Source: a virus. Taken from it: DNA of 41,253 nt. The position numbers were made by a program, and so were the translations under genes. The notes beneath the pieces are model-generated. The model was not told the DNA's origin, ran no database searches, and was given only the letters and a program-made list of their open reading frames with translations. The DNA lies in the IMG/VR virus record IMGVR_UViG_3300020193_000046, positions 1 through 41,253 of that record; one strand, given 5' to 3'. This document shows, piece after piece, positions 4,970-37,683 of this stretch (position 1 is its first letter; the number at the start of each line of letters is the position of its first letter).

Positions 4970-5749
4970 ATGATGATGACAGAGGCACGCGAGATCCTGC
5001 TGGAGGACGCGAAGAAGACTATCGCGGATCACTCCTTCGTCCGGGCGCTTATCCGCAAGTGGAAGGACTTCCTGGAGGGGATGCCTGACCGCACGGATGC
5101 CGACCGCTACACGCTCGGCGTGACGGCGGTGCTGATGGAGAACCAGTCGCAGTACCTCCAGAACCTCTCGGAGGACACGCGGCAGGCGAACGTCGGCTCC
5201 TTCACGAAGTTCATCTTCCCGGTGCTGCGCCGGGTCTTCCCCAACCTCATCGCCAACGACATCGTGTCGGTGCAGCCGATGACCGCCCCTATTGGAGCGG
5301 TGTTCTTCCTCGACTACAAGTACGGGACGAACAAGGGCGGGACGGCGTCGGGCAACGTCTTCCCCAGGGACTTCGACCGCGACTACTCCTCGGAGTACAT
5401 CAACGGCGAACTCCTCGCCACGGGCGACGGCGTGAAGTACGGCGGCGGCGGCCAGGCTCTCGCTGCGACCCTGGCCTTCGTGCCGGTCCGTCCGCTCGAC
5501 GCGAGCCTCGGCTACTCGGTCCAGGTGATCGAGTACAACGTGACGACCGGCGCGGTGGTGCAGACTGCGACCACAACGGCTCGGGCGCGTTCACCTTCGT
5601 CCCGGCGGGTGTCAACACGGCGGGCACCATCAACTACACCACCGGGGCCGTTGCCGCGTTCAAGTTCCAGAACGTCCCCGCGAACAACAACCCGATCAAG
5701 GCCCTCTACTACTACAACGGCGAGATGTCGTCGAACATCCCGCAGGTGA
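4970..5749 (+). CDS. major capsid protein, N-terminal part (T4 gp23-like), frame-broken
   Basis: N-terminal segment of the main shell protein. Residues about 70-120 hold the gp23 hallmark: 'GSFTKFIFPVLRRVFPNLIA' followed by 'VSVQPMTAPIGAVFFLDYKYG'. True capsid sequence ends near codon 199; beyond that the frame reads an implausible Arg/Ser/Thr-rich tail to a stop at 5747-5749. The real continuation lies in the -1 frame (from about 5565) and runs on to 6483. Rejoined, the protein would be about 504 residues, close to T4 gp23 (521). Three ATGs in tandem (4970, 4973, 4976) follow a GGGAG site. I judge a one-base deletion in the sequence or assembly more likely than programmed frameshifting, because no slippery heptamer is present at the join. 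Confidence 0.85.
   Translation: MMMTEAREILLEDAKKTIADHSFVRALIRKWKDFLEGMPDRTDADRYTLGVTAVLMENQSQYLQNLSEDTRQANVGSFTKFIFPVLRRVFPNLIANDIVSVQPMTAPIGAVFFLDYKYGTNKGGTASGNVFPRDFDRDYSSEYINGELLATGDGVKYGGGGQALAATLAFVPVRPLDASLGYSVQVIEYNVTTGAVVQTATTTARARSPSSRRVSTRRAPSTTPPGPLPRSSSRTSPRTTTRSRPSTTTTARCRRTSRR
5561..5575 (+). other. frame break inside the major capsid gene
   Basis: Frame 2 coding (ending '..TTGAVVQTA') must switch to frame 1 ('DHNGSGAFTF..') around here, equivalent to one missing base. Restoring a single C (GCGAC read as GCCGAC) would give a continuous '..QTADHNGSGAF..', which matches the homologous module in the sheath protein. Confidence 0.75.
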
Positions 5750-6483
5750 ACCTCGACGTGACCAAGCAGCCGGTCGAGGCGAAGCCGCGCCGCCTCAAGG
5801 CGCTGTGGTCGAGCGAGGCGGTCGAAGATCTCCGCGCCTTCCAGGGCCTCGATGCCGAGACCGAAATCGTCAGCGCCATCTCGCAGGAGATCGCGCTGGA
5901 GATCGACCGCGAGATCGTGCAGTCCCTCTTCGCCAACTCGACGGGCACCTCGGCGTCCTTCGACCGCGTGCCCCCGGCGGCCATCGCGGAGGTGGATCAC
6001 TTCCGCGCGCTGATCACGCAGATCGCCACGGTCTCGAACCTGATCCACAAGAAGACCCTGCGCGCGCCCGCGAACTTCATCGTCACCTCCCCCGAGGTGT
6101 CGGCGCTGATCGCGCAACTCACCACCCACTCCGACTTCCGCCCGCTATCCGCGTCCGGCGGCGCGTCGCCCTACGGCCCGATGGACATGCCGCGCCCGCT
6201 CACTCAGCACGGGCAGTACGGCATCTACAAGGTCGGCACGCTCCAGAACAAGTGGCTGGTCTACGAGGATCCCTTCTTCGCCCGCGACAAGATGCTCGTC
6301 GGCCTGAAGGGCAACTCGTACCTGGACTCGGGCTACGTGTTCGCGCCCTACATCCCGCTCCAGGTTACCCCGACCTTCCTTGATCCGGCGGACTTCTCGT
6401 TCCGCAAGGGCCTGCGGACGCGCTACGCGACCAAGCTCCTGCGCTCGGAGTTCTACGGTCAGGTGACGATCAATAACTTGTAG
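5725..6483 (+). CDS. major capsid protein, C-terminal part (T4 gp23-like)
   Basis: Second part of the capsid protein. The same frame is open and coding upstream of ATG 5725 back to about 5570, so 5725 is an internal Met rather than a true start. The segment contains the gp23-type block 'VEAKPRRLKALWSSEAVEDL', then 'GLDAETEIVSAISQEIALEIDREIV', matching T4 gp23 'SRALKAEYTLELAQDLKAVHGLDAETELSN' in pattern, and ends with a typical 'RYATKLLRSEFYGQVTINNL' C-terminus. Upstream, residues encoded at 5570-5720 form a small beta module ('AGTINYTTGAVAAFKFQNVP') also present in the tail sheath. Hairpins follow the stop. If the frame break is real, only a fused product made by frameshifting could build the shell. 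Confidence 0.83.
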   Translation: MSSNIPQVNLDVTKQPVEAKPRRLKALWSSEAVEDLRAFQGLDAETEIVSAISQEIALEIDREIVQSLFANSTGTSASFDRVPPAAIAEVDHFRALITQIATVSNLIHKKTLRAPANFIVTSPEVSALIAQLTTHSDFRPLSASGGASPYGPMDMPRPLTQHGQYGIYKVGTLQNKWLVYEDPFFARDKMLVGLKGNSYLDSGYVFAPYIPLQVTPTFLDPADFSFRKGLRTRYATKLLRSEFYGQVTINNL

Positions 6484-6574: not shown

Positions 6575-6594
6575 GTGCGATCACACGGTCGCAC
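6575..6594 (+). promoter_or_regulatory. palindromic operator-like site, copy A
   Basis: GTGCGATCACACGGTCGCAC has arms GTGCGA and TCGCAC and matches the 16-base palindrome found also at 15753, 21244 and 37668. It overlaps the expected start of transcription of the possible promoter at 6562. Confidence 0.45.
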
Positions 6595-15752: not shown

Positions 15753-15768
15753 GCGATCATGTGGTCGC
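15753..15768 (+). promoter_or_regulatory. palindromic operator-like site, copy B
   Basis: GCGATCATGTGGTCGC, arms GCGATCA/TGGTCGC with one mismatch, lies 15 bases before the ribonucleotide reductase start in a 52-base gap. It is related to sites at 6577, 21244 and 37668. Confidence 0.5.
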
Positions 15769-15783
15769 GGCGTGGGGTGTGTG

Positions 15784-18384
15784 ATGCTACACGGTCGGAA
15801 TTTCCCGGAGTCATCCCCCCTCGATCCCTCTACCCCTCGCCTCGCCGCCCCCTCCCTGACCAGCCTCGGCCGCCTCATCTTCCTCGACCGCTACGCGATG
15901 AAGGACCAGGATCGCAGTCACCTTCGGGTGGGGCAGGAAGTGGTGGTGTGCCCGGACATCGAGCGGGGTCAGCGCGAGGTGGCGATGCTGCGCCAAGTAG
16001 ACTATCAGGCGCGCGTCGCGGTGGTCGCCATGGACGACCTCTCCTTGGTTCAGGCCCCCTTCGATCAGATCGACTGCCCCGTCGAGGACTTCGATGGTGC
16101 CCTCCGCCGGATGGCGCGGGCGGTGGCTCAGGCCGAGAAGCCAGACCTTCGGGAGAAGTGGGAACGGGAGTTCCTTGCGCTCCTCCGCACGCTCGGCTTT
16201 GTTCCCGCCGGGCGCGTGTGGGCGGGCGCGGGCGTGGAAGAGAAGCTGACCGCGTTCAACTGCAACGTGATCCCTGCCCCCAAGGATTCTCGGTCGGGGA
16301 TCGTCTGCACCCTCGATCGGATGACCGAACTGATGTCGCGCGGTGGCGGAGTGGGCATCCCCCTGATGTCGCTGCGCCCTCGTTACAACATCGTGCGTGG
16401 GGTCAACGGGAGGTCGTCAGGGTCGGTGTCGTGGGGGGAACTCTATAGCTTTACGACGGGGAAGATCGAGCAAGGCGGCTCCCGAAGGGGAGCCTTGATG
16501 CTGATCCAGTACGCCTGGCACCCCGACGTGATCGAGTTCATCCACGCCAAGCGAGACCCGACCAGGATCAAGAACGCCAACGTGTCGGTGGGCATCACCG
16601 ACGCTTTCATGGATGCGGTGGCGCGCGACATTGATTGGGATCTGGTCTTCCCGGACACCTCCCACCCCAGCTACGACTCGGAGTGGGATGGTGACCTTGG
16701 GGCGTGGAAGGAGAAGGGTCGTCCGGTGGTGGTCCACAAGACCGTGCGCGCCCGGTTCCTCTGGAACCAGATCGTCGAGAGCGCCCACGCCGCCGCCGAG
16801 CCAGGGCTGTTCTTCGTTGATCGGGTGAACAAGGAGTCGAACTCCTGGTACTACGCCAGAGGGCGTATTTATTCGACAAACCCGTGTGGTGAACAACCGC
16901 TTCCTCCGTGGGCCGTGTGCAACCTCGGCCACCTCAACCTCCCTCGCTTCCTGGACGGGGACGGAATGGAGGCGCAACCCGCTTTGCTCAACAAAGCAAG
17001 GCTGCGTCAGGCGGTGCGATCCTCTGTTCGCTTCCTAGACGACGTGCTGGATGTGGCGTTCACTCCGTACCCTGAGATGGACGACCAGCGATTCAAGGAG
17101 CGGCGGATTGGCCTCGGGACGATGGGCCTCGCCGAGATGCTCACTCGCGTCCACATACGCTACGGCAACAACCCGGAGTGCCTGCGTTTCCTTGACGATC
17201 TCTACGGAACGATCTGCGAGGAGGCGTACCTCGCGTCCGCAGAACTCGCCGTCGAGAAGGGCTCCTTTCCCTGGTTCGACGCTGACAAGCTCCTCCAGAG
17301 CGGCTTCGCCCAGAAGCTCCCCGAACACGTTCGCCAGGCCATCCGCTCGAAGGGCCTCCGCAACGTCACCCTCATCACGCAGGCACCTACCGGGACCGTC
17401 GGAACTTTGATGGGCACCTCCACCGGCATCGAGCCGTGGGTGTGGTGGGAGTGGGATCGGAAGGGTCGCCTCGGAACCCATCGGGAGCGCGCGAGCGTGT
17501 ACGAGGAGTACCTGGAGCGCCACCCGGCCTTGGCTGCGATCCGCGCCGACCTGTCCCCCGAGCAGCGCGCCAAGTCCGCTTCCGGCCTCCCTCCGTGGTT
17601 CGTTACCACCGCCGACCTCTCGCCCGGAGATCATGCCTATACCCAGGCCGCGATCCAGCGGTGGACGGACAGCAGTATCAGCAAGACCTCCAACCTCCCC
17701 GCCGACTACACCCCCGCCGAGGTCGGCGACTTCTACCGCCTCCTCTACGACCTCGGCTGCAAGGGAGGCACCGTCTACCGCGACCAGAGCCGCGCCGAAC
17801 AGGTGCTCAACCTCCCCCTCTCCGCCCCCGAGCCCGCGAAGCCCCACCCGATCCTCCGGCCCGTCCCCGCCGACCCCTACGATGGCAAGGCCCAGTCGGT
17901 CGATACCCCCCTCGGGAAGGCTAGCGTCAAGCTGTTCCTCCACCCCGAGGACGGGGAACCGTTCGAGGTGTGGGTGGACGTGAGCCGGTCGGGTTCCTCG
18001 GTGGCCGCCGACAAGGAGGCGCTGGCCCGGCTCTCCTCCCTGGTCCTCCGCCTCGACTCCCCCGTGCCCGCCCGCGAACGGGTCAGCCTTCTCATCGACC
18101 AACTGGCTGGCATCAAGGGGGACGACTCCGCCGGGTTCGGCCCCGAGCGCGTCCTCTCCCTGCCGGATGGGGTCGCCAAGGCGCTCCGAAAGCTCCTGGC
18201 AGCCCTTCCCTCTCCCCAGGAAGTCCGTGCCCCCGTAGAGCCGTCCCCGCCCGCCCAGGCGCATCCTGGGACGAATGGGACACAGGCCCGCCAGTGGGCC
18301 GACCTGTGCCCGAGTTGTCACGGGGCCACCCTGCTCCGGGTGGAGGGGTGCGAGAAGTGCCCTTGTGGGTACTCCCGCTGTTGA
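15784..18384 (+). CDS. nrdJ: class II (adenosylcobalamin-dependent) ribonucleoside reductase
   Basis: Reduces ribonucleotides to deoxyribonucleotides using a B12-derived radical, without a NrdB partner. Numbered from ATG 15784 (866 residues): redox cysteines Cys160 ('FNCNVIPAP') and Cys379 ('AVCNLGHLNL'); radical-site motif 'NPCGEQPL' with Asn366, Cys368 and Glu370; phosphate-binding type 'APTGTVGTLMGTSTGIEPW'; and a C-terminal cysteine cluster ('CPSCHG' to 'CEKCPCGYSRC') that in NrdJ re-reduces the active site. All expected catalytic residues are present, so the enzyme looks active. The N-terminal 'FVPAGRVWAGAG' is also typical. GTG 15772 in frame is an alternative start. The gene is inserted between tail tube and tail chaperone genes, with a palindrome upstream; codon use looks like its neighbours. 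No intein seen. Confidence 0.94.
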   Translation: MLHGRNFPESSPLDPSTPRLAAPSLTSLGRLIFLDRYAMKDQDRSHLRVGQEVVVCPDIERGQREVAMLRQVDYQARVAVVAMDDLSLVQAPFDQIDCPVEDFDGALRRMARAVAQAEKPDLREKWEREFLALLRTLGFVPAGRVWAGAGVEEKLTAFNCNVIPAPKDSRSGIVCTLDRMTELMSRGGGVGIPLMSLRPRYNIVRGVNGRSSGSVSWGELYSFTTGKIEQGGSRRGALMLIQYAWHPDVIEFIHAKRDPTRIKNANVSVGITDAFMDAVARDIDWDLVFPDTSHPSYDSEWDGDLGAWKEKGRPVVVHKTVRARFLWNQIVESAHAAAEPGLFFVDRVNKESNSWYYARGRIYSTNPCGEQPLPPWAVCNLGHLNLPRFLDGDGMEAQPALLNKARLRQAVRSSVRFLDDVLDVAFTPYPEMDDQRFKERRIGLGTMGLAEMLTRVHIRYGNNPECLRFLDDLYGTICEEAYLASAELAVEKGSFPWFDADKLLQSGFAQKLPEHVRQAIRSKGLRNVTLITQAPTGTVGTLMGTSTGIEPWVWWEWDRKGRLGTHRERASVYEEYLERHPALAAIRADLSPEQRAKSASGLPPWFVTTADLSPGDHAYTQAAIQRWTDSSISKTSNLPADYTPAEVGDFYRLLYDLGCKGGTVYRDQSRAEQVLNLPLSAPEPAKPHPILRPVPADPYDGKAQSVDTPLGKASVKLFLHPEDGEPFEVWVDVSRSGSSVAADKEALARLSSLVLRLDSPVPARERVSLLIDQLAGIKGDDSAGFGPERVLSLPDGVAKALRKLLAALPSPQEVRAPVEPSPPAQAHPGTNGTQARQWADLCPSCHGATLLRVEGCEKCPCGYSRC

Positions 18385-18656: not shown

Positions 18657-19235
18657 ATGCCCGAGGATCGCTCCGAGTCTCCGAAGGTCGAGGAGGTCGC
18701 GGCTCCCATCGATCCTGTCGTCGAGTGGGAGCGCAAGGTCCGTGAACGCTTCCGGTTCCGCTGTGGGAACTGCGGCGGGAGCGACCGCCTGAAGGTGCGT
18801 ATGGCGGTGCCAGAGGAGGCAGGGGGAAAGCTGGTCTCCTCGAACGGACTCCTGCTCTGCCGCCCGTGCGAGATGGCCGCCGAGACCCGTGGCCGCTCGG
18901 ACGAAGATCGACGGCCCATCAACTTCTGGGTCAGCCGGAGCCTCTACGACCGCCTTCAGAATGGGCTCCGCACTCGGGCGAAATTCCCCTCCATCGGGGC
19001 GCTGATCCGCTACCTGATGGGCAAGTACGTCGAGGACGAGAGCCGCTTCGACGACCTCCCCCAGTACATCGAGGAAGGCTCGGACGTGAAGGTGAACTGC
19101 TGGGTGGATCGAGGAACCTACGCCTCCTTCAAGGAACGCCTGGATGCCCGAGGCATGACCGTGACCGATGCGGTCAAGGCTCTGATCGTGTGCTTCGAGA
19201 CCCTTTCCGAACAGCGCGAGGAGGCCGCCGGATGA
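18657..19235 (+). CDS. DNA-binding regulator: zinc finger plus two ribbon-helix-helix repeats
   Basis: 192 residues. Residues 33-73 hold a CxxC...CxxC unit (Cys36, Cys39, Cys68, Cys71: 'RFRCGNCGG' to 'NGLLLCRPCEM') laid out like the zinc frame of HNH nucleases, but the catalytic His positions are absent, so a binding rather than cutting role is likely. Residues about 87-125 ('INFWVSRSLYDRLQNGL..FPSIGALIRYLMGKYV') and 144-182 ('VKVNCWVDRGTYASFKERLD..MTVTDAVKALIVCF') are two Arc/CopG-type ribbon-helix-helix units in tandem, which could act as a single-chain dimer. Transcription starts at or beside ATG 18657 from a promoter whose spacer is a dyad repeat, suggesting self-control. The stop overlaps the tail chaperone start. 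Confidence 0.68.
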   Translation: MPEDRSESPKVEEVAAPIDPVVEWERKVRERFRFRCGNCGGSDRLKVRMAVPEEAGGKLVSSNGLLLCRPCEMAAETRGRSDEDRRPINFWVSRSLYDRLQNGLRTRAKFPSIGALIRYLMGKYVEDESRFDDLPQYIEEGSDVKVNCWVDRGTYASFKERLDARGMTVTDAVKALIVCFETLSEQREEAAG

Positions 19236-20029
19236 GCACCACCGAACAGATGATCGTCGAGAACCAACTGCGGGAGCCGAAGTCCTCGAAGGGGGTCTAC
19301 GACCTTCCCTGTGGCTTCATTGACGAGGACGGGGTGCTCCACGGGGAGGTGGTGGTGCGGGAGATCACGGGCGCGGAGGAGGACATCCTCGCCGCTCCCA
19401 AGATGCCTGCGGTGAAGAAGATGAACGAACTCTTCGCCCGCTGCGTCGAGCGCCTGGGGACGATCTCCGACAAGGAGAAGATCGCTGCCGCCGTCCCGAG
19501 GCTCCTGGTCGGCGACCGCGTGTTCCTGATGTTCGCGCTCCGCCGCGCCTCCCTCGGCGACGACTACCCCTTCAAGGAGAAGTGCCCGGAGTGTGAGGTG
19601 GAGGGGCTGTTCAACGTCGATCTCTCCACCATGGCCGTTCGCCCGATGTCCGACTGCAAGAAGCGGATCCATGACCTCAAGCTCCCCTCGGGGAAGGCCG
19701 TTCGTTGGCACGCCCTCGACGGGGCGGGAGAGGCCAAGCTCCAGAACATCGCCCAGCGCGCCGACGCCCTCTCCCTCTCCGTGCTGGCTCGCCTCGACCT
19801 CCTCGACGGCAAGCCCCCCACCATGGAAGCCGTCAAGATCCTCTCCCTCAACGACCGGAACGCCCTTCGGGACGATTTCGAGGACAAGGAGGGCGGGGTG
19901 GACACGGAGACCGAGATGGCTTGCTCCTCCTGCGGGGCGGTCTTCATGCGGGACATCGACGTGGGGCAGAAGGGTTTTTTCTTCCCCTCGCGGACGCCGA
20001 AGAACTCGAAGAAGAGGTCTTCTTTCTGA
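19232..20029 (+). CDS. tail assembly chaperone / T4 gp26-like baseplate family protein
   Basis: 265 residues starting at an ATGA overlap with the regulator gene. The pattern 'VVVREITGAEEDILAAPKM', 'LLVGDRVFLMFALRRASLGDDYPF' and 'KCPECEVEGLFNVDLSTM' matches the T4 gp26-type baseplate family (T4_baseplate domain), which in many large phages sits just upstream of the tape measure as a tail assembly chaperone. Two CxxC pairs ('CPEC' and 'CSSC') suggest zinc binding. Near the 3' end the message contains T TTT TTC (19975-19981), a classic -1 slippery heptamer, leading into a coding extension to 20175. This short-plus-extended pair is the usual design of phage tail chaperones. Confidence 0.75.
   Translation: MSTTEQMIVENQLREPKSSKGVYDLPCGFIDEDGVLHGEVVVREITGAEEDILAAPKMPAVKKMNELFARCVERLGTISDKEKIAAAVPRLLVGDRVFLMFALRRASLGDDYPFKEKCPECEVEGLFNVDLSTMAVRPMSDCKKRIHDLKLPSGKAVRWHALDGAGEAKLQNIAQRADALSLSVLARLDLLDGKPPTMEAVKILSLNDRNALRDDFEDKEGGVDTETEMACSSCGAVFMRDIDVGQKGFFFPSRTPKNSKKRSSF
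19975..19981 (+). other. -1 programmed frameshift site (T TTT TTC)
   Basis: The heptamer lies in the correct zero-frame phase (GGT TTT TTC). Slipping back one base continues as 'LPLADAEELEEEVFFLMETLG..' to the stop at 20173-20175, giving a 314-residue fusion. A stem, AAGAAG-AGGT-CTTCTT (20009-20024), lies about 27 bases downstream, farther than the usual stimulator. Confidence 0.65.
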
Positions 20030-20175
20030 TGGAGACCCTCGGGCTCGCCTACGCCGACATCATGGCGATGCCCGCGACGCGCCGCGTCCGCCTGATCCAC
20101 AAGAAGCACGAACTCGAACAGCGCCGCGCCCAGAAGCAGCGGGAGGATCTAGCCAGAGCGCGAGCGCGCAGGTAG
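20029..20175 (+). CDS. frameshift extension of the tail assembly chaperone
   Basis: C-terminal part of the chaperone, 48 residues counted from the ATG at 20029 (overlapping the TGA stop), but most likely made as a -1 frameshift fusion with the upstream gene from 19975. The frame is open and acidic before the ATG ('ADAEELEEEVFFL'), then 'GLAYADIMAMPATRRVRLIHKKHELEQRRAQKQRE', an amphipathic, basic helix. In phage tail chaperones the extension recruits the tape measure protein. Reinitiation at the TGATG overlap could also give a separate small protein. Confidence 0.62.
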   Translation: METLGLAYADIMAMPATRRVRLIHKKHELEQRRAQKQREDLARARARR

Positions 20176-20184: not shown

Positions 20185-21216
20185 GTGCGTGCAGAGATTC
20201 GACGGCTTTGGGCGCTGGTCGAGCGGAAATATCCGCCCGGAACGGTGCGTTCCTGGGCGATGGGGGATTTCGAGAAGCAGAAGGACGGCTCGTGGGTTCC
20301 GGTAGCGGCTCGGAAGACTACCGTTTCTTCCACGCCCCCGTCGAAACCCCCGCTGAAGAAGCGGCCAAGCGCACCACCCCCCAGTAACCCTGGCGAGACC
20401 CTTGTCCGGTCGATCAAGCGCCCTCCAGGCTGGAGGGCCTCCACGGACGAGCCCAACTTCAACCAGGAAACATGGCCTTCTTCCCACACCGCTGTCTCTC
20501 CGAAAGGCAGCTTGTATGTGGGAACGATCCACGCTGATCTCTCCCAGGACTCCCCGGAGATGGACTATGTGAAAGATGTTCTCGCTCCCCAAGCAGTCAA
20601 GGTGGCGCGCAAAGCGGTGCGCCAAGGGAAGAAGGTGGTGTTCTTTTCGGAGGGTCGGAAGACCGATCCTGGGGCCGCCTGGATGTTTAGCGAGCAGGAC
20701 GTTATTGGCCGGGCGCTGCACGACGCCTTCGGCGCACGAGTTGAACTCGACACCTGGGACGACTTCGCAACGGACGTGCTTGCACGCACGTCACCGATCT
20801 GGGAACGGTTGGCCCAGGTTGCCGGGGGGCGTGGCGAGGCCGAAGCCGCGATGACCGCCTTCATGGTCGGTCAGGGGGTGGCTCCAGACGACGAGGAACA
20901 TGCGGGGATCATCACGCCCCAAGCTCGGAAGATCCTCAAGAAGAAGTACGGATTGGATCTGGACCAGATCGGGAAGCAGGAGCCGGACAAGGACGGGAAC
21001 GATCCTATCGTTGCCCAACTCTATCGGATGAGCTTTCCTGGCGACTTCGGCGACCCTCACAACAGCATCTCCGCTGTGGGAGAGGTCTACAACGCGGCGC
21101 GGCAAGATCGCTTGCTTGCCAGGGTGAAAGAGGTGGAAGATGCGGGAGGTGTGGCGATCGTTTCCGCAGGCGCTTCCCATATCTACAGCCTGAAGCCTGC
21201 TGTGGAGAGGGGTTAG
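20185..21216 (+). CDS. TIKI/TraB-like putative metal-dependent hydrolase
   Basis: 343 residues from GTG 20185. The N-terminal 40 residues ('RRLWALVERKYPPGTVRSW..KDGSWVPVA') and a Pro-rich linker (about 45-80) precede a domain from about 105 to 343. That domain has the layout of the TIKI/TraB/GumN superfamily: a first GX2H ('VGTIHADLS', Gly113-His116), a Glu after a hydrophobic strand ('VVFFSEGRK', Glu156), an Arg-containing helix late in the domain ('NAARQDRLLARV') and a second GX2H at the end of the last strand ('IVSAGASHIYSL', Gly329-His332). Known members are metal-dependent proteases or related hydrolases. Finding one between tail chaperone and tape measure is unusual. The start site lacks a ribosome site and appears leaderless. 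Assignment is by motif. Confidence 0.55.
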   Translation: MRAEIRRLWALVERKYPPGTVRSWAMGDFEKQKDGSWVPVAARKTTVSSTPPSKPPLKKRPSAPPPSNPGETLVRSIKRPPGWRASTDEPNFNQETWPSSHTAVSPKGSLYVGTIHADLSQDSPEMDYVKDVLAPQAVKVARKAVRQGKKVVFFSEGRKTDPGAAWMFSEQDVIGRALHDAFGARVELDTWDDFATDVLARTSPIWERLAQVAGGRGEAEAAMTAFMVGQGVAPDDEEHAGIITPQARKILKKKYGLDLDQIGKQEPDKDGNDPIVAQLYRMSFPGDFGDPHNSISAVGEVYNAARQDRLLARVKEVEDAGGVAIVSAGASHIYSLKPAVERG

Positions 21217-21243: not shown

Positions 21244-21259
21244 GCGACCATGTGGTCGC
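21244..21259 (+). promoter_or_regulatory. palindromic operator-like site, copy C (best match)
   Basis: GCGACCATGTGGTCGC has perfect 7-base arms (GCGACCA/TGGTCGC) around TG. It lies in the 78-base gap before the tape measure gene; related sites are at 6577, 15753 and 37668. Confidence 0.55.
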
Positions 21260-21294: not shown

Positions 21295-24200
21295 TTGTCG
21301 GCCTGGGTTAGCTTTACCTTCGGTGCCAAGGACGCGGGGCTTAACAAGCGTCTAAAGCACTATGGAGTGGGGTTTGGTAAGATCCACGCCGCCCTGGACG
21401 ATATGGGTGCGTCCGGCAAGAAGGGGGCGAGCGGGGTCAAGGACTTCACCTCGGCGCTTGACACCAAGCAGACGGAAGGGCTGAACGCTTCCCTGGAGAA
21501 GCTCCACGCCCTGCTCGAAGAACAGCTTCCCAACTCCTCCGCCAAGACCGGGAAGGCGATCAGGCAGCAAAGCTCCGTCTTTAACACCTACACGCGGGAC
21601 GCGGGGCGGGGCCTGAAGCTGATCGAGGGAGCGGTGAGCCGCCTGGGCAAGATCTTGTCCCAGGTGAAGCTCTCGAACTTCCTCTCCGTCTTTTCCCTCT
21701 CCCGGCTAGGGGACATCGCGCGCGGCGTCGAGAACCTCGCCACCGGGGGGCGGAACCTCACCACCGGCTACGAGGCCCAGCTTGTCCAGATGGACAAGTC
21801 CGCACGAGCGACCGCTGTCCAGTTCGGGATGACCGGGAAGGCGGTAGGGAAGTTTTCTGCCCAGGCCAGTTCGATGGCGATCGGTCTCAACATCGACGTG
21901 GGCAAGGCGTCGAGCGCGATCTACGTCTTCAACTCCAACATGGACGAACTGAAGGCGTTGGGCTTCAAGTCGGCCCAGTCCTTCGCCAAGTTCGGGGAGG
22001 TGTTGGGGGTAGATACCAACCAGTTTGGGTTCTTCGCCGCCGAGGTGAAGTCGGTTCTTGGGGACGACGCCTACGCGAAGAACGCGAAGAACCTTTTCGG
22101 GGCCTTTGGTCGGTTCGGACAGCAGTCGGGCGACGTGAAGGGGGCCTTCGACATGATGAAGGACGTGGTGCCGCAGTTGAAGGAGGCGGCGACTTCTTCC
22201 GGGCAGATCATGGACGGCGAAACGCTAGCCCGCTACGGCAAGGGCGTGGCGGTTGCCGCCGCAGGCTTCTTCGCGGTCTCCCACAACGCGGCGGAAGCCA
22301 AGTCGTTGGCCCTGAGCATGTCCAGCAACATGGTCAAGGCGCGGCAGAACATCGCCAACATGTTCGCGGGTACCGAGGGGGACCTGAGCGCGATGGCGAC
22401 CGAGCTTGGTGTGGCGACAGGCGACATCAACGCCTCGTTCAATCTTATCAAGAGCAACCCCGACGAGTTCGCCAAGGGGCTGTTCCAGATGGTTCAGGCT
22501 GCCAAGAAAAATGGGGTTCCGCTGGAGCAGCAGATGTCCTTCCTGGGAGCGCGGCTGGGGGCTGCGTTCGGCCCCGAGCAGGCTGCCCAGCTAATGCAGT
22601 TCTTCGAGAAGGGTGGGGAGAAGGCCCTCGACGCGATGGCGGACGCGCAGAGCGCGACGACCAGCCTCGCCAAGATGGGGGAGGAGGGCTACCGTACCGG
22701 CCGCACGCTGGCTGAGAGCTTCGAGCTTGCGGAGAATCGGTTCATCAAGACCTTCCGCGACGTGGGGCGAGCCGAGGCCCGGAAGTTCGTCAGTGAAACG
22801 GGGAAGGAGTTCGACAAGTTCGGGAAGAAGGCGAAGGAGATCGCCAGCGACGGCGGCCCGCTGGGTGCGATCGTCAAGAAGTTCTCGGAGATGCACCAGG
22901 TCGGTGCCCTGGCCCTTCTTCCCCAGAGCCTTCGTCCCATCGCTGCCGTGTTCGGGACCATGCTCAAGGAGGGGGCTCCCCTGATCGGGATGCTCGGTTC
23001 GCTCGGCTTCCGCCTCTCCATGCTCGGTCCCCTCCTCCCCATCGCCGCCTTCGGGGCCTTCGTGTGGGCGATGAAGTCGGCGGAGAACCAGGCGGTCGCC
23101 ACGGCCGAGGAAGCGGCCAATAGCGGGAAGTCGATGCGGGGGCTATCGCAGGGGGTCCGCGATCTCGAAAAGCAGCAGCAGAAGCTCGTGTACGGGACCG
23201 AGGCGTGGAACAACGTGCAGCGTCAGATCGACCAGAAGAACTACCTCCTCAAGATGGCGAAGGCGATGAAGGCGGCGGCGGGGGACGAGAAGAAGCTCGC
23301 CGCTCTACGGACTCAGGTCGCGGAGCACGAGCGGCAGCGTTCCATCGAGCAGGTGAAGCGCATCGCCAAGAGCGTGACCCAGAAGGTCGGAGCTTTCATG
23401 CAGGCCCTCCCCTCCATCGTTCGGGAGGGCGCGAAGATGTTCGTCGAGGTGTGGAAGGAGATCAAGGACCCGCTCCTCGACGCCCTGAAGGCCGCCTGGT
23501 CGTGGGTGAAGACGAAGGCCTGGCCCGCCATCAAGGACTTCCTGAAGGGCATGTGGGATGGCCTGATCCACGGAACCAAGGCAACCGGCACGAGCGCCTC
23601 CACCCAGCTTGGAGCCCGCATCGGCCAGGTTGTTCGGAACGCCCTCGTCTTCGCCTGGCGCTGGGCCAAGGACACCGCCTGGCCCGCCATCGTGGATTTC
23701 GTCAAGGGTGTCTGGGACGGGCTGTTCCGCCAGGCGAAGGCAGACGAGCCGAGCGCGTCGGCCCGCCTCGGAGCGAGCCTTGGTTCCGCCATCCGAGGGG
23801 CGTTCGACTACGCGGTGAAGTGGGTCAGGGACTACCTGAAGGGTTGGTGGGCGACGGTGACGGCGATCTGGACCGACTCGTCCAAGTCGTTTACCGAGAA
23901 GATCAAGGAGACCTTCAAGGCATCCGGCGGCGTCTTCGTCCTCCTTGCCGGGAGCCTCTTCCTGGTCATCCCTCTCCTCGGACGGCTCCTTACGCTGGGC
24001 GGTCTGCTCTCCGGCTCCTTTGGCCTCGTGCCCAATGTGTTCTGGCAACTGGGAAGCAGCTTGATGTTTGTTCTCAGACCCCTCGGTTCCCTGTTCAAGG
24101 GGTTCGGTCAACTGGCGGGACGTATCGGCGGGTTGGTCTTTGGCACGATCCCCAAGATCGGGTCGGTCTTCGCTTCCGTGTTCGCTGGGGTGGGTGTGCG

Positions 24201-26013
24201 GCTCCTGGCCTTCGGCAAGGGCATCCTCGCGTTCTTCGGGAGCATCTTGGCCCCGCTGGGTTCCTTGTTGATGAAAGGGTTGTCTCCCCTGATCCAGATC
24301 GGTCAGTTCGTCTGGGCGGTGATCTCTGGGTTGTTTGGCAACCTGCTCGCTTTCCTGGGTCCGGTCGGGAAGGTGTTCGTCGGCCTTTCCGCCGGAGCGT
24401 GGGCCGCGATCGGGGCGGTGGTGGCTCTGGGAGTGGCCTTCACCCTCTGGCCCGAGAAGACGCAGGCAGCGGTTGATTGGGTGACGCAGAAGATCAGGGA
24501 GTGGTTGCCCAAGCTGGTTCCGATCGTGATGAACGCTCTCGCGTTCGTGGCGGGGATGATCTGGAAGGTGGTGTCCTACGTTTGGTCCAACATGCCGCAA
24601 CTTCTCACCGGCTTGGTTAAGGCTCTTTCCGCTATCGTGGACATAGCTATAGCCGCTCTTTTGGGATTGTTCGACGGGCTCCAGAACTGGCTCATGGAGA
24701 AGTTCCCAGAGTCGGCAGGAACGATCAAGAACGTATTCGACTTCCTGAAGTCTGCCGTCGAGGTGGCAGGGAGCGCCATCAAGGTTGTTCTCAAGGTGAT
24801 CGGGTGGTCTTTCGAGGTGTTGTGGTCGGTGGCGAAGGGCGTACTCAAGGGCTTGTGGTGGGCCTTCGAGACCTTCGTGCTCACTCCTCTGGGCTGGATA
24901 TGGAAAGCGGTGAAGAAGGTGCTCTCCGCCTTCTCGGAATCCTCTAAGTATTCCGATGAACAGATTGCTCACGCCTACGAGGGCGGGGTGCATCAGATGG
25001 AAGCGATGCCCGAGAAGGCGGCGATGGCTGGTGCGGCTGCGGCTGAAGGAGCGACGCAAGCAGCCAAGGCGGTGACGGATGCGGCGGTGACGGCGAACGA
25101 GAACACCTTGAAGGCGGCTCAGAAGGGGGTGGAGGAGCAGTCGAAGAAGCTGACCGAGAATCTGGGGAAGGCCGCCGAGACTGCCGCCAGCACTACGAAC
25201 GTCACGATGCTTAGGGAACTGGAAGCGGTGGCGAAGCGCGCGATGGAAATCTCCGAGACCGCGAAGACCGAGGCTTCCGTGAACGCCGCGAAGGGTATTC
25301 TGGCTGAGATCGAAAACGCCCAGAAGGCGGCGACGGCAGCGAAATCGAAGGAGGATGTGGCGAAGGCCCAGCAAGTCCTGGATGGTCTGAAGAAGCAGGC
25401 CGCCGACCTCGAACTCCGGGTGGGGAAGACCCAGGTGGGAGGCTTCGAGAGCACTCCGGCCAGCCTGGAAGCGTTTGCCGGACCAGCGGTGAAGAAGAAG
25501 CGCAAGGGAGGCTGGACGGAGGAGATGGGACAGCAGGTCGTGGACGGCTACCAGAAGGCGATGGGGACGATGACCGAGAACTCCAAGGTCTTCCTGACCG
25601 AGCAGATCAAGACCTTCGGGACCCTCACCGACACCATCGTCCAAAAGTTCCAGTCCGCGTGGGACCGGATCTTGGAAGCCTCCGGCCGGTTCGCCGAGCA
25701 GCTTTCCGAGCAGGTCAGCCAGGCCCTCCTCCGCATCGAGACCCTGGCCGCCACCGCCCAGGCCGTCCAGGTGCTCTCCGAGGCCCCGCGCGCGGCCCCT
25801 CCTCCGGCCCTCTCCAAGCCGATGACCAAGGAGGAGCGGGAGGACGCGCTCCTTCAAGCGACCCACTGGCCCCAGTGGTACGAGGAGTACCGGGTGCAGT
25901 TCGCCAAGCAGATGCTCGGGCTTCAGGGCGCGATCCAGAAGTCCGGCACCTCCCAAGAACCCGTTCGACGTGGGAAAGCCCTCCCCCCAGTACGCGGGAA
26001 CCCAACGGAGTAG
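21295..26013 (+). CDS. tail tape measure protein
   Basis: 1572 residues, the largest gene here, sitting between tail chaperone and baseplate hub as tape measures do. It sets tail length; at the usual rough figure of 0.15 nm per residue the tail would be about 235 nm (inference). The sequence is helical and Ala/Lys-rich, with hydrophobic stretches near residues 560-600, 878-935, 965-1055 and 1085-1150 that could cross the host membrane during ejection. Two 53-residue repeats occur at about 734-839. An Ala/Lys coiled-coil region spans about 1215-1400. No lysozyme or peptidase motif was seen. Start TTG 21295 is the first after an in-frame stop at 21289; there is no clear ribosome site, so the true start could be the next in-frame ATG (21361). 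Confidence 0.9.
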   Translation: MSAWVSFTFGAKDAGLNKRLKHYGVGFGKIHAALDDMGASGKKGASGVKDFTSALDTKQTEGLNASLEKLHALLEEQLPNSSAKTGKAIRQQSSVFNTYTRDAGRGLKLIEGAVSRLGKILSQVKLSNFLSVFSLSRLGDIARGVENLATGGRNLTTGYEAQLVQMDKSARATAVQFGMTGKAVGKFSAQASSMAIGLNIDVGKASSAIYVFNSNMDELKALGFKSAQSFAKFGEVLGVDTNQFGFFAAEVKSVLGDDAYAKNAKNLFGAFGRFGQQSGDVKGAFDMMKDVVPQLKEAATSSGQIMDGETLARYGKGVAVAAAGFFAVSHNAAEAKSLALSMSSNMVKARQNIANMFAGTEGDLSAMATELGVATGDINASFNLIKSNPDEFAKGLFQMVQAAKKNGVPLEQQMSFLGARLGAAFGPEQAAQLMQFFEKGGEKALDAMADAQSATTSLAKMGEEGYRTGRTLAESFELAENRFIKTFRDVGRAEARKFVSETGKEFDKFGKKAKEIASDGGPLGAIVKKFSEMHQVGALALLPQSLRPIAAVFGTMLKEGAPLIGMLGSLGFRLSMLGPLLPIAAFGAFVWAMKSAENQAVATAEEAANSGKSMRGLSQGVRDLEKQQQKLVYGTEAWNNVQRQIDQKNYLLKMAKAMKAAAGDEKKLAALRTQVAEHERQRSIEQVKRIAKSVTQKVGAFMQALPSIVREGAKMFVEVWKEIKDPLLDALKAAWSWVKTKAWPAIKDFLKGMWDGLIHGTKATGTSASTQLGARIGQVVRNALVFAWRWAKDTAWPAIVDFVKGVWDGLFRQAKADEPSASARLGASLGSAIRGAFDYAVKWVRDYLKGWWATVTAIWTDSSKSFTEKIKETFKASGGVFVLLAGSLFLVIPLLGRLLTLGGLLSGSFGLVPNVFWQLGSSLMFVLRPLGSLFKGFGQLAGRIGGLVFGTIPKIGSVFASVFAGVGVRLLAFGKGILAFFGSILAPLGSLLMKGLSPLIQIGQFVWAVISGLFGNLLAFLGPVGKVFVGLSAGAWAAIGAVVALGVAFTLWPEKTQAAVDWVTQKIREWLPKLVPIVMNALAFVAGMIWKVVSYVWSNMPQLLTGLVKALSAIVDIAIAALLGLFDGLQNWLMEKFPESAGTIKNVFDFLKSAVEVAGSAIKVVLKVIGWSFEVLWSVAKGVLKGLWWAFETFVLTPLGWIWKAVKKVLSAFSESSKYSDEQIAHAYEGGVHQMEAMPEKAAMAGAAAAEGATQAAKAVTDAAVTANENTLKAAQKGVEEQSKKLTENLGKAAETAASTTNVTMLRELEAVAKRAMEISETAKTEASVNAAKGILAEIENAQKAATAAKSKEDVAKAQQVLDGLKKQAADLELRVGKTQVGGFESTPASLEAFAGPAVKKKRKGGWTEEMGQQVVDGYQKAMGTMTENSKVFLTEQIKTFGTLTDTIVQKFQSAWDRILEASGRFAEQLSEQVSQALLRIETLAATAQAVQVLSEAPRAAPPPALSKPMTKEEREDALLQATHWPQWYEEYRVQFAKQMLGLQGAIQKSGTSQEPVRRGKALPPVRGNPTE
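23494..23811 (+). repeat. two tandem 53-residue repeats in the tape measure gene
   Basis: 'AWSWVKTKAWPAIKDFLKGM' (from 23494) is repeated as 'AWRWAKDTAWPAIVDFVKGV' (from 23653), each followed by 'WDGL', a 'KA...SAS..LGA..G' linker and an Arg-Ala helix. A third partial copy ('YAVKWVRDYLKGWW') follows. The period is 159 bases. Confidence 0.75.
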
Positions 26014-37230: not shown

Positions 37231-37668
37231 ATGCTTCGCGTGCGGCTCCAGGAGGTTTCCCCCATCGGGGTCATCGCTCCGCTGAAACTCGTCGGCTTCC
37301 TCCTTCCCGAGAACGCCATCCAGGTCGTGCGCGGGGGTACCTTGACCCTCCACGTTCTGGTCTACGAGGAGACCGACCCCGACGCCCTGGTGGACATCAC
37401 CCTCGCCACCCTGCACTTCACGGTGAAGGAGGGGATCTCCGAGAAGCACCCGCCACGCATCTACAAAGTCTCCACGGACCCGATGCAGATCGATGTCCAC
37501 AAGCCCCGCCACGGGGAAGCGAAGGTCATGATCGCCTCTGCGGACACCAAGACGTTGGAGCCCCGTTCCCATGTTTACGACCTCTGGTTGTTTCTGGGGG
37601 GCGGACGCTACCCGTTGATCTCGCAGGGCGTGTTCGAGGTGCTACCCAACATCGCGGTTCTACCTTGA
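37231..37668 (+). CDS. putative baseplate/fibre beta protein (Ig-like)
   Basis: 145 residues, AAGGGA upstream and a TTGATC-N17-TACTAC promoter. The pattern 'GGTLTLHVLVYEETDPDALVD', 'YKVSTDPMQIDVHKPRHGEAKVMIASADT', 'SHVYDLWLFLGGGRYPLI' resembles small Ig-like baseplate or fibre proteins (BppU N-terminal type: strand, 'D..Q..I....G.a...L...DT', 'YD.W....G..Y'). Likely virion surface. The promoter shared with the regulator gene means it may be expressed separately from the late transcript. Confidence 0.58.
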   Translation: MLRVRLQEVSPIGVIAPLKLVGFLLPENAIQVVRGGTLTLHVLVYEETDPDALVDITLATLHFTVKEGISEKHPPRIYKVSTDPMQIDVHKPRHGEAKVMIASADTKTLEPRSHVYDLWLFLGGGRYPLISQGVFEVLPNIAVLP

Positions 37669-37683
37669 CGACCACATGGTCGC
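37668..37683 (+). promoter_or_regulatory. palindromic operator-like site, copy D
   Basis: ACGACCACATGGTCGC contains perfect 6-base arms CGACCA/TGGTCG around CA. It begins at the stop of the previous gene and ends just before the GGAGG site of the metalloprotease gene. Confidence 0.5.

Follow-up and report, generated by a model that had tools for sequence, protein, structure and literature searches.

The window, a 41,253-nucleotide stretch of viral DNA, is a contig of a T4-related myophage, and the gene considered here (20185–21216, plus strand) sits in a slot just ahead of the tape measure. On the 5′ side of the slot is a T4 gp26-like baseplate-hub assembly gene (19232–20029, plus strand; PF12322, E = 5.6e-8), which is 38–57% identical in 24 relatives; its −1-frame extension (20029–20175, plus strand; 47–62% identical in relatives) forms the 5′ border, and the tape measure gene (21295–26013, plus strand; 22–46% identical in relatives) forms the 3′ border. 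The initial annotation had placed the gene between a tail chaperone and the tape measure; the position holds, with the 5′ neighbor, extension included, being the gene that matches PF12322. Near the 3′ end of the gp26-like gene, a slippery T_TTT_TTC (19975–19981) marks a candidate programmed −1 frameshift: the −1 frame continues into a 48-residue tail, and of 12 relatives checked, nearly all have T6C or a similar run at this position. Just upstream, 18657–19235 encodes a conserved 192-residue protein with a zinc-ribbon-like N terminus (CxxC...CxxC), which lies beside the slot in all relatives checked and has no Pfam match. The tail region also contains a ribonucleotide reductase (RNR) gene (15772–18384), present there in relatives too; the RNR frame of relative L105 is 1677 residues long and contains additional, apparently intein-like sequence; the RNR matches in L098 are also split. 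On the other side of the gene, between it and the tape measure, a palindrome search finds the 16-bp GCGACCATGTGGTCGC (21244–21259, no strand assigned). This element and its near copies occupy four gene junctions (6577–6592, 15753–15768, 21244–21259, and 37668–37683), and matches with up to three mismatches number 15 against 1.1 expected; in relatives L098, L099, and L093, GACCACGTGGTC occupies the corresponding place, after the gp26 extension and before the tape measure. The palindrome is possibly a regulatory site or a terminator.

Is this a real, intact gene? The question matters because reading frames are broken elsewhere in the contig: the major capsid gene loses its frame near 5700 and falls into two parts (4970–5749 and 5725–6483), and the start of the tape measure (~21295–21315) is out of frame relative to other phages of the group (MGLNFLGLGFSFGAKD); these breaks are either sequencing errors or real mutations. 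The 20185–21216 frame begins with GTG, preceded by AGGA 7 nt upstream, and is open throughout. Its codon-position GC (0.65/0.48/0.72) is of the coding type, and the phase is constant along the gene except in a proline linker, in which CCN codons raise position 2; together, these features identify a single intact coding gene. The GTG start is favored over Met26 because residues 14–41 resemble modules in related phages.

The product is an orphan, two-part protein of 343 residues, all parts of which are encoded on the plus strand. An N-terminal module (residues 14–41, 20224–20307; YPPGTVRSWAMGDFEKQKDGSWVPV) is followed by a basic, Pro-rich linker (residues 42–70, 20308–20394), predicted to be disordered from its sequence, composition, and model confidence (pLDDT below 50 at residues 41–77). 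A basic N terminus and a Pro-rich linker had been proposed from the outset, and a count over the first 100 residues agrees (18 K + R, 9 D + E, 16 Pro, pI 10.7). The C-terminal α/β domain (residues 105–340, 20497–21204), delimited by low-confidence models and profile alignments, has a pI of 5.4 and a TIKI-like motif layout. Inspection of the sequence by eye revealed no obvious transmembrane or signal stretch. Among the fetched phage loci, three proteins contain the pattern [YF]P[PV]GT[VI]R[NS]W: this one and two proteins of related phages, G003 and G023, in which the module versions YPVGTVRNWARG... and FPPGTIRNWSDG... precede a C-terminal zeta-toxin kinase domain (PF06414, E = 1.7e-23 and 1.3e-28, respectively; L085:1-1299 for G003 and L100:6319-8625 for G023). 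In G023, the zeta protein is long, and its gene lies downstream of the gp26 homolog, ~4.6 kb from where that gene ends. The pattern also matches once in a bacterial locus, apparently in a frame that is not coding, and small matches to the module in a Halorubrum virus, an Arthrobacter phage, and others were set aside as chance or unrelated frames. The zeta-toxin proteins are possibly modular phage effectors, and a module common to them and to the 343-residue protein suggests, from sequence, that the latter is a modular effector as well.

What do relatives carry in the slot? A search with the major capsid protein yielded 77 related viral loci. The gene is absent from the 78 related records searched (50 + 28, most of which are fragments), and none of the 21 distinct related phages that share the junction from gp26-like gene to tape measure carries it. 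The slot is empty or nearly so in ~14 of these 21, empty meaning a gap of no more than 355 bases from the matched gp26 end to the open tape-measure frame, with the −1-frame extension included; the gap is intermediate in L310, and L313 was left out of this classification. Nuclease genes are found in the other 7: LAGLIDADG genes in L096 and L097, an apparent LAGLIDADG remnant, read from the sequence, in L091, and NUMOD4-HNH genes, encoded on the other strand, in L092 and L093 (Pfam match) as well as L090 and L095 (similar sequence). Composition also sets the gene apart: its GC3 (0.715) is the lowest of the 37 window genes (mean 0.837, sd 0.049), and its codon usage is the most atypical of them. 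Absence in relatives, slots that are empty or filled by nucleases, and odd codon usage together argue for accessory cargo in an insertion hot spot. The gene is thus very probably accessory, of the moron type: it is missing at the syntenic position in relatives and is compositionally distinct, as accessory genes are, and it is not conserved with the neighboring tail genes, as a structural part of the tail module would be. Recent lateral gain at the hot spot would explain this most simply.

The initial annotation had instead suggested a role within the tail module and a tether to the virion. As a tail or virion component, the protein would be a hydrolase serving in tail-protein maturation or in entry, held by its N-terminal tether. 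The gene does lie among late genes on the same strand, its module recurs in the G023 zeta-toxin protein not far downstream of gp26, and phage polyvalent proteins often have genes close to those of the virion and are often packaged (PMC5512222). However, relatives with the same tail genes all lack it, their slots being empty or occupied by homing nucleases, and its codons are atypical; furthermore, the RNR gene resides in the same region, so a gene's location there says little about a tail role. A tail function is therefore improbable, and the original proposal of one is not supported. Even less probable is that the gene belongs to a mobile DNA element as a degenerate or unusual homing endonuclease, the kind of gene that fills the slot in seven relatives: the protein has no LAGLIDADG, HNH, GIY-YIG, or other nuclease motif or Pfam match, whereas the occupants in relatives match clearly, and its N-terminal module is common to zeta-kinase proteins, not nucleases. 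We rejected a homing-endonuclease identity on these grounds.

If the gene is accessory, what does its C-terminal domain do? Two GX2H motifs, a Glu after a hydrophobic strand, and an Arg-rich helix had been read as the layout of the TIKI superfamily, and all are where they were reported to be: GTIH (residues 113–116, 20521–20532), with the first putative catalytic His; Glu156 (20650–20652), after the strand VVFFS (VVFFSEG); Arg306 (21100–21102), a candidate conserved basic residue which, together with Arg309 and Arg313, sits in a predicted helix; and GASH (residues 329–332, 21169–21180), with the second putative catalytic His. In a TIKI endopeptidase, the active site is made up of two His and two Glu, with a basic residue close by (PMC6254334); the first His comes after strand 1, a Glu follows a later strand, and the other His is C-terminal. 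In the 343-residue protein, H116, E156, R306, and H332 occur in the expected sequence, and a second Glu near H116 is absent. Two GxxH motifs alone are common, being present in 217 of 1309 ORFs of similar length (17%). The full ordered layout, defined as strand-GxxH, strand-E, and an R 22–28 residues before a strand-GxxH, appears in 2 of 20,000 shuffles and 4 of 2,359 ORFs; these odds are optimistic because this protein was already known when the rule was drawn up and because few true TraB proteins (9 of 52) satisfy it.

Family searches give less. The whole protein has no match in Pfam, NCBIfam, or PADLOC, and only chance-level matches among PHROGs and PDB sequences; PHROG 10957 (E = 0.019) was dismissed as noise and matches to PDB sequences of serine hydroxymethyltransferase as spurious. 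The Pfam TIKI families PF01963, PF04187, and PF05139 do not match it even at E = 10, and the best PF01963 score under --max, 1.5 bits, is below the curated cut-off of 26.8 bits and ranks 25th among 2,001 sequences (the query domain and 2,000 shuffles). Profiles built from gathered TraB/GumN, ChaN, and erythromycin-esterase sequences were compared with the C-terminal domain by hhalign, with 200 shuffles and 200 phage ORFs as controls. The TraB, ChaN, and EreA profiles each place their own C-terminal His on H332, and the best local alignment of the TraB profile (helix-R-strand-GxxH) covers residues 298–336. The TraB score is reached by 9 of 200 shuffles and 6 of 200 phage ORFs (empirical P = 0.03–0.045). 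The scores of ChaN (PF04187; 65 shuffles and 64 ORFs) and Ere (PF05139; 100 and 77) are at chance level, and the sum of the three scores is reached by 17 shuffles and 10 ORFs. The profile comparison thus beats chance for TraB only, a suggestive result. The TIKI/TraB-like reading survives in part: motif order and the TraB profile speak for it, the Pfam TIKI families do not, and a TIKI-like domain is our best guess from these alignments.

Counting against a TIKI assignment, the best sub-threshold Pfam match of the Glu156 segment is to acyltransferase motif III (PF01553, E = 0.03–0.09). Could the protein be a lysophospholipid-acyltransferase (PlsC)-like enzyme? Residues 137–165 (AVKVARKAVRQGKKVVFFSEGRKTDPGAA) resemble this motif (VVIFPEGTRTEPGA), with 52% over 29 residues in L291. 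However, motif I, HX4D, is absent upstream of SEGRKTDPG: H116 is followed by D122, which makes HX5D, and lies only 40 residues before the Glu. The matches fall short of the cut-off, and a search of 398 genomes would be expected to yield about one such by chance. With HX4D missing, we rejected this identity, which is the least probable of all those considered.

Structure prediction is of modest help. Single-sequence AlphaFold models are of low confidence, both for the full-length protein (pLDDT 60, pTM 0.52) and for the domain alone (59 and 0.56). They agree on a predicted strand within residues 109–115, helices to 146, a strand at 151–157, a helical middle, a long helix at 294–319, and then a strand at ~323–328 that ends at GASH; only three or four strands are predicted in the C-terminal domain in these low-confidence models. 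The TIKI core fold is a mainly parallel β-sheet surrounded by helices, and the order of the predicted elements is compatible with it. Fold searches with either model (pLDDT ~60) returned nothing above background and no TIKI protein among the matches listed, an absence that proves nothing because the quality of the models is too low.

The main competitor is then an accessory effector with the same hot spot and modular build, in which the C-terminal domain has another, unrecognized fold and activity and the GxxH pair, a combination frequent in ORFs of this size, is coincidental. The weakness of all family and profile evidence and the noise returned by structure searches are what this explanation would lead one to expect; yet it does not account for the ordered strand-GxxH, strand-E, helix-R, strand-GxxH series with TraB-like spacing at its C-terminal end, or for the TraB profile selecting exactly that segment. 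We regard it as almost as likely as a TIKI-type effector, with the tail, nuclease, and acyltransferase explanations minor.

Searches for homologs of the C-terminal domain found none by tblastn against phages and plasmids or by blastn; none in viral and genome contigs by exact-peptide scans with six exact 8-mers, which often miss moderately similar relatives; none with two degenerate DNA patterns built on guessed conserved residues; and none in 398 Pseudomonadota genomes, in which the top matches are a repetitive FliK-like protein and acyltransferases. Membership in a family with GEG, EQ, TWD, and GQG motifs gained no support from a pattern test. The statement that there is no homolog applies to these searches, limited as they are to exact 8-mers, single-sequence tblastn, and patterns, which moderately distant metagenome homologs could escape.

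The explanation that we tentatively put first is an accessory effector with a very divergent TIKI-type hydrolase domain, whose cytoplasmic target would be a molecule of the host or of a competitor. The gene would have been acquired laterally, lodging in a hot spot of a T4-related myophage, and would be dispensable for the tail. Its basic N-terminal GTxRxW-G-K-W module and the disordered Pro-rich linker may carry the C-terminal α/β domain; His116, Glu156, Arg306, and His332 would form the putative active site of this domain, and the enzyme would cut a peptide or ester bond in its target. The TIKI fold and catalysis we infer from motif order and profiles; a cytoplasmic site and an effector role would be in keeping with this scheme. 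A bolder version, in which this is an accessory phage effector, a TIKI-superfamily protease or esterase at a homing-endonuclease hot spot, and in which different host-directed enzymes, a zeta-type kinase of related phages among them, share a single shuffled module for delivery or tethering, strikes us as rather unlikely.

To our knowledge, no phage TIKI-like example has been described. No open papers were found that combine TIKI, TraB, and bacteriophage, and a search of 50,697 phage records with YbaP gave no credible relatives save two unannotated 1.6-kb records that resemble host DNA. If the domain is indeed TIKI-like, the phage would encode an effector that cuts peptide or ester bonds and whose host target could be tested for. 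That this phage group has an insertion hot spot between its gp26-like and tape-measure genes does not depend on the fold, and a gene found there is therefore not to be assumed a tail part.

How does the protein compare with known systems? Among TIKI-superfamily enzymes, ChaN (PF04187) and erythromycin esterase (PF05139) resemble it in the alignment of their C-terminal His on H332, but with chance-level scores. The TraB/PrgY/GumN family (PF01963; E. coli YbaP) has the same order of strand-G(S/T)IH, strand-Glu, Arg-bearing long helix, and strand-GxxH, and the Arg-to-His spacing is alike (26 here versus 24–27 in TraB proteins). By contrast, the His-to-Glu spacing is 40 here versus 26, the second invariant LE..Q strand of TraB is without a clear counterpart, the N-terminal module is extra, and there is no HMM match at E = 10. 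Polyvalent effectors (Iyer et al., 2017, PMC5512222), in an account that nowhere mentions EreA, TraB, or Tiki, similarly have a small N-terminal module swapped between enzyme domains and are encoded near late genes; here, however, there are only two modules, and no domain named in that work is detected. Homing endonucleases are found in and beside tape-measure genes, with cargo exchange between phages (Barth et al., 2023, PMC10448857). The present slot differs from such HEG islands in that its occupant in this phage is not a nuclease, and is like them in being an insertion hot spot adjoining the tape measure, which in relatives holds HNH or LAGLIDADG genes.
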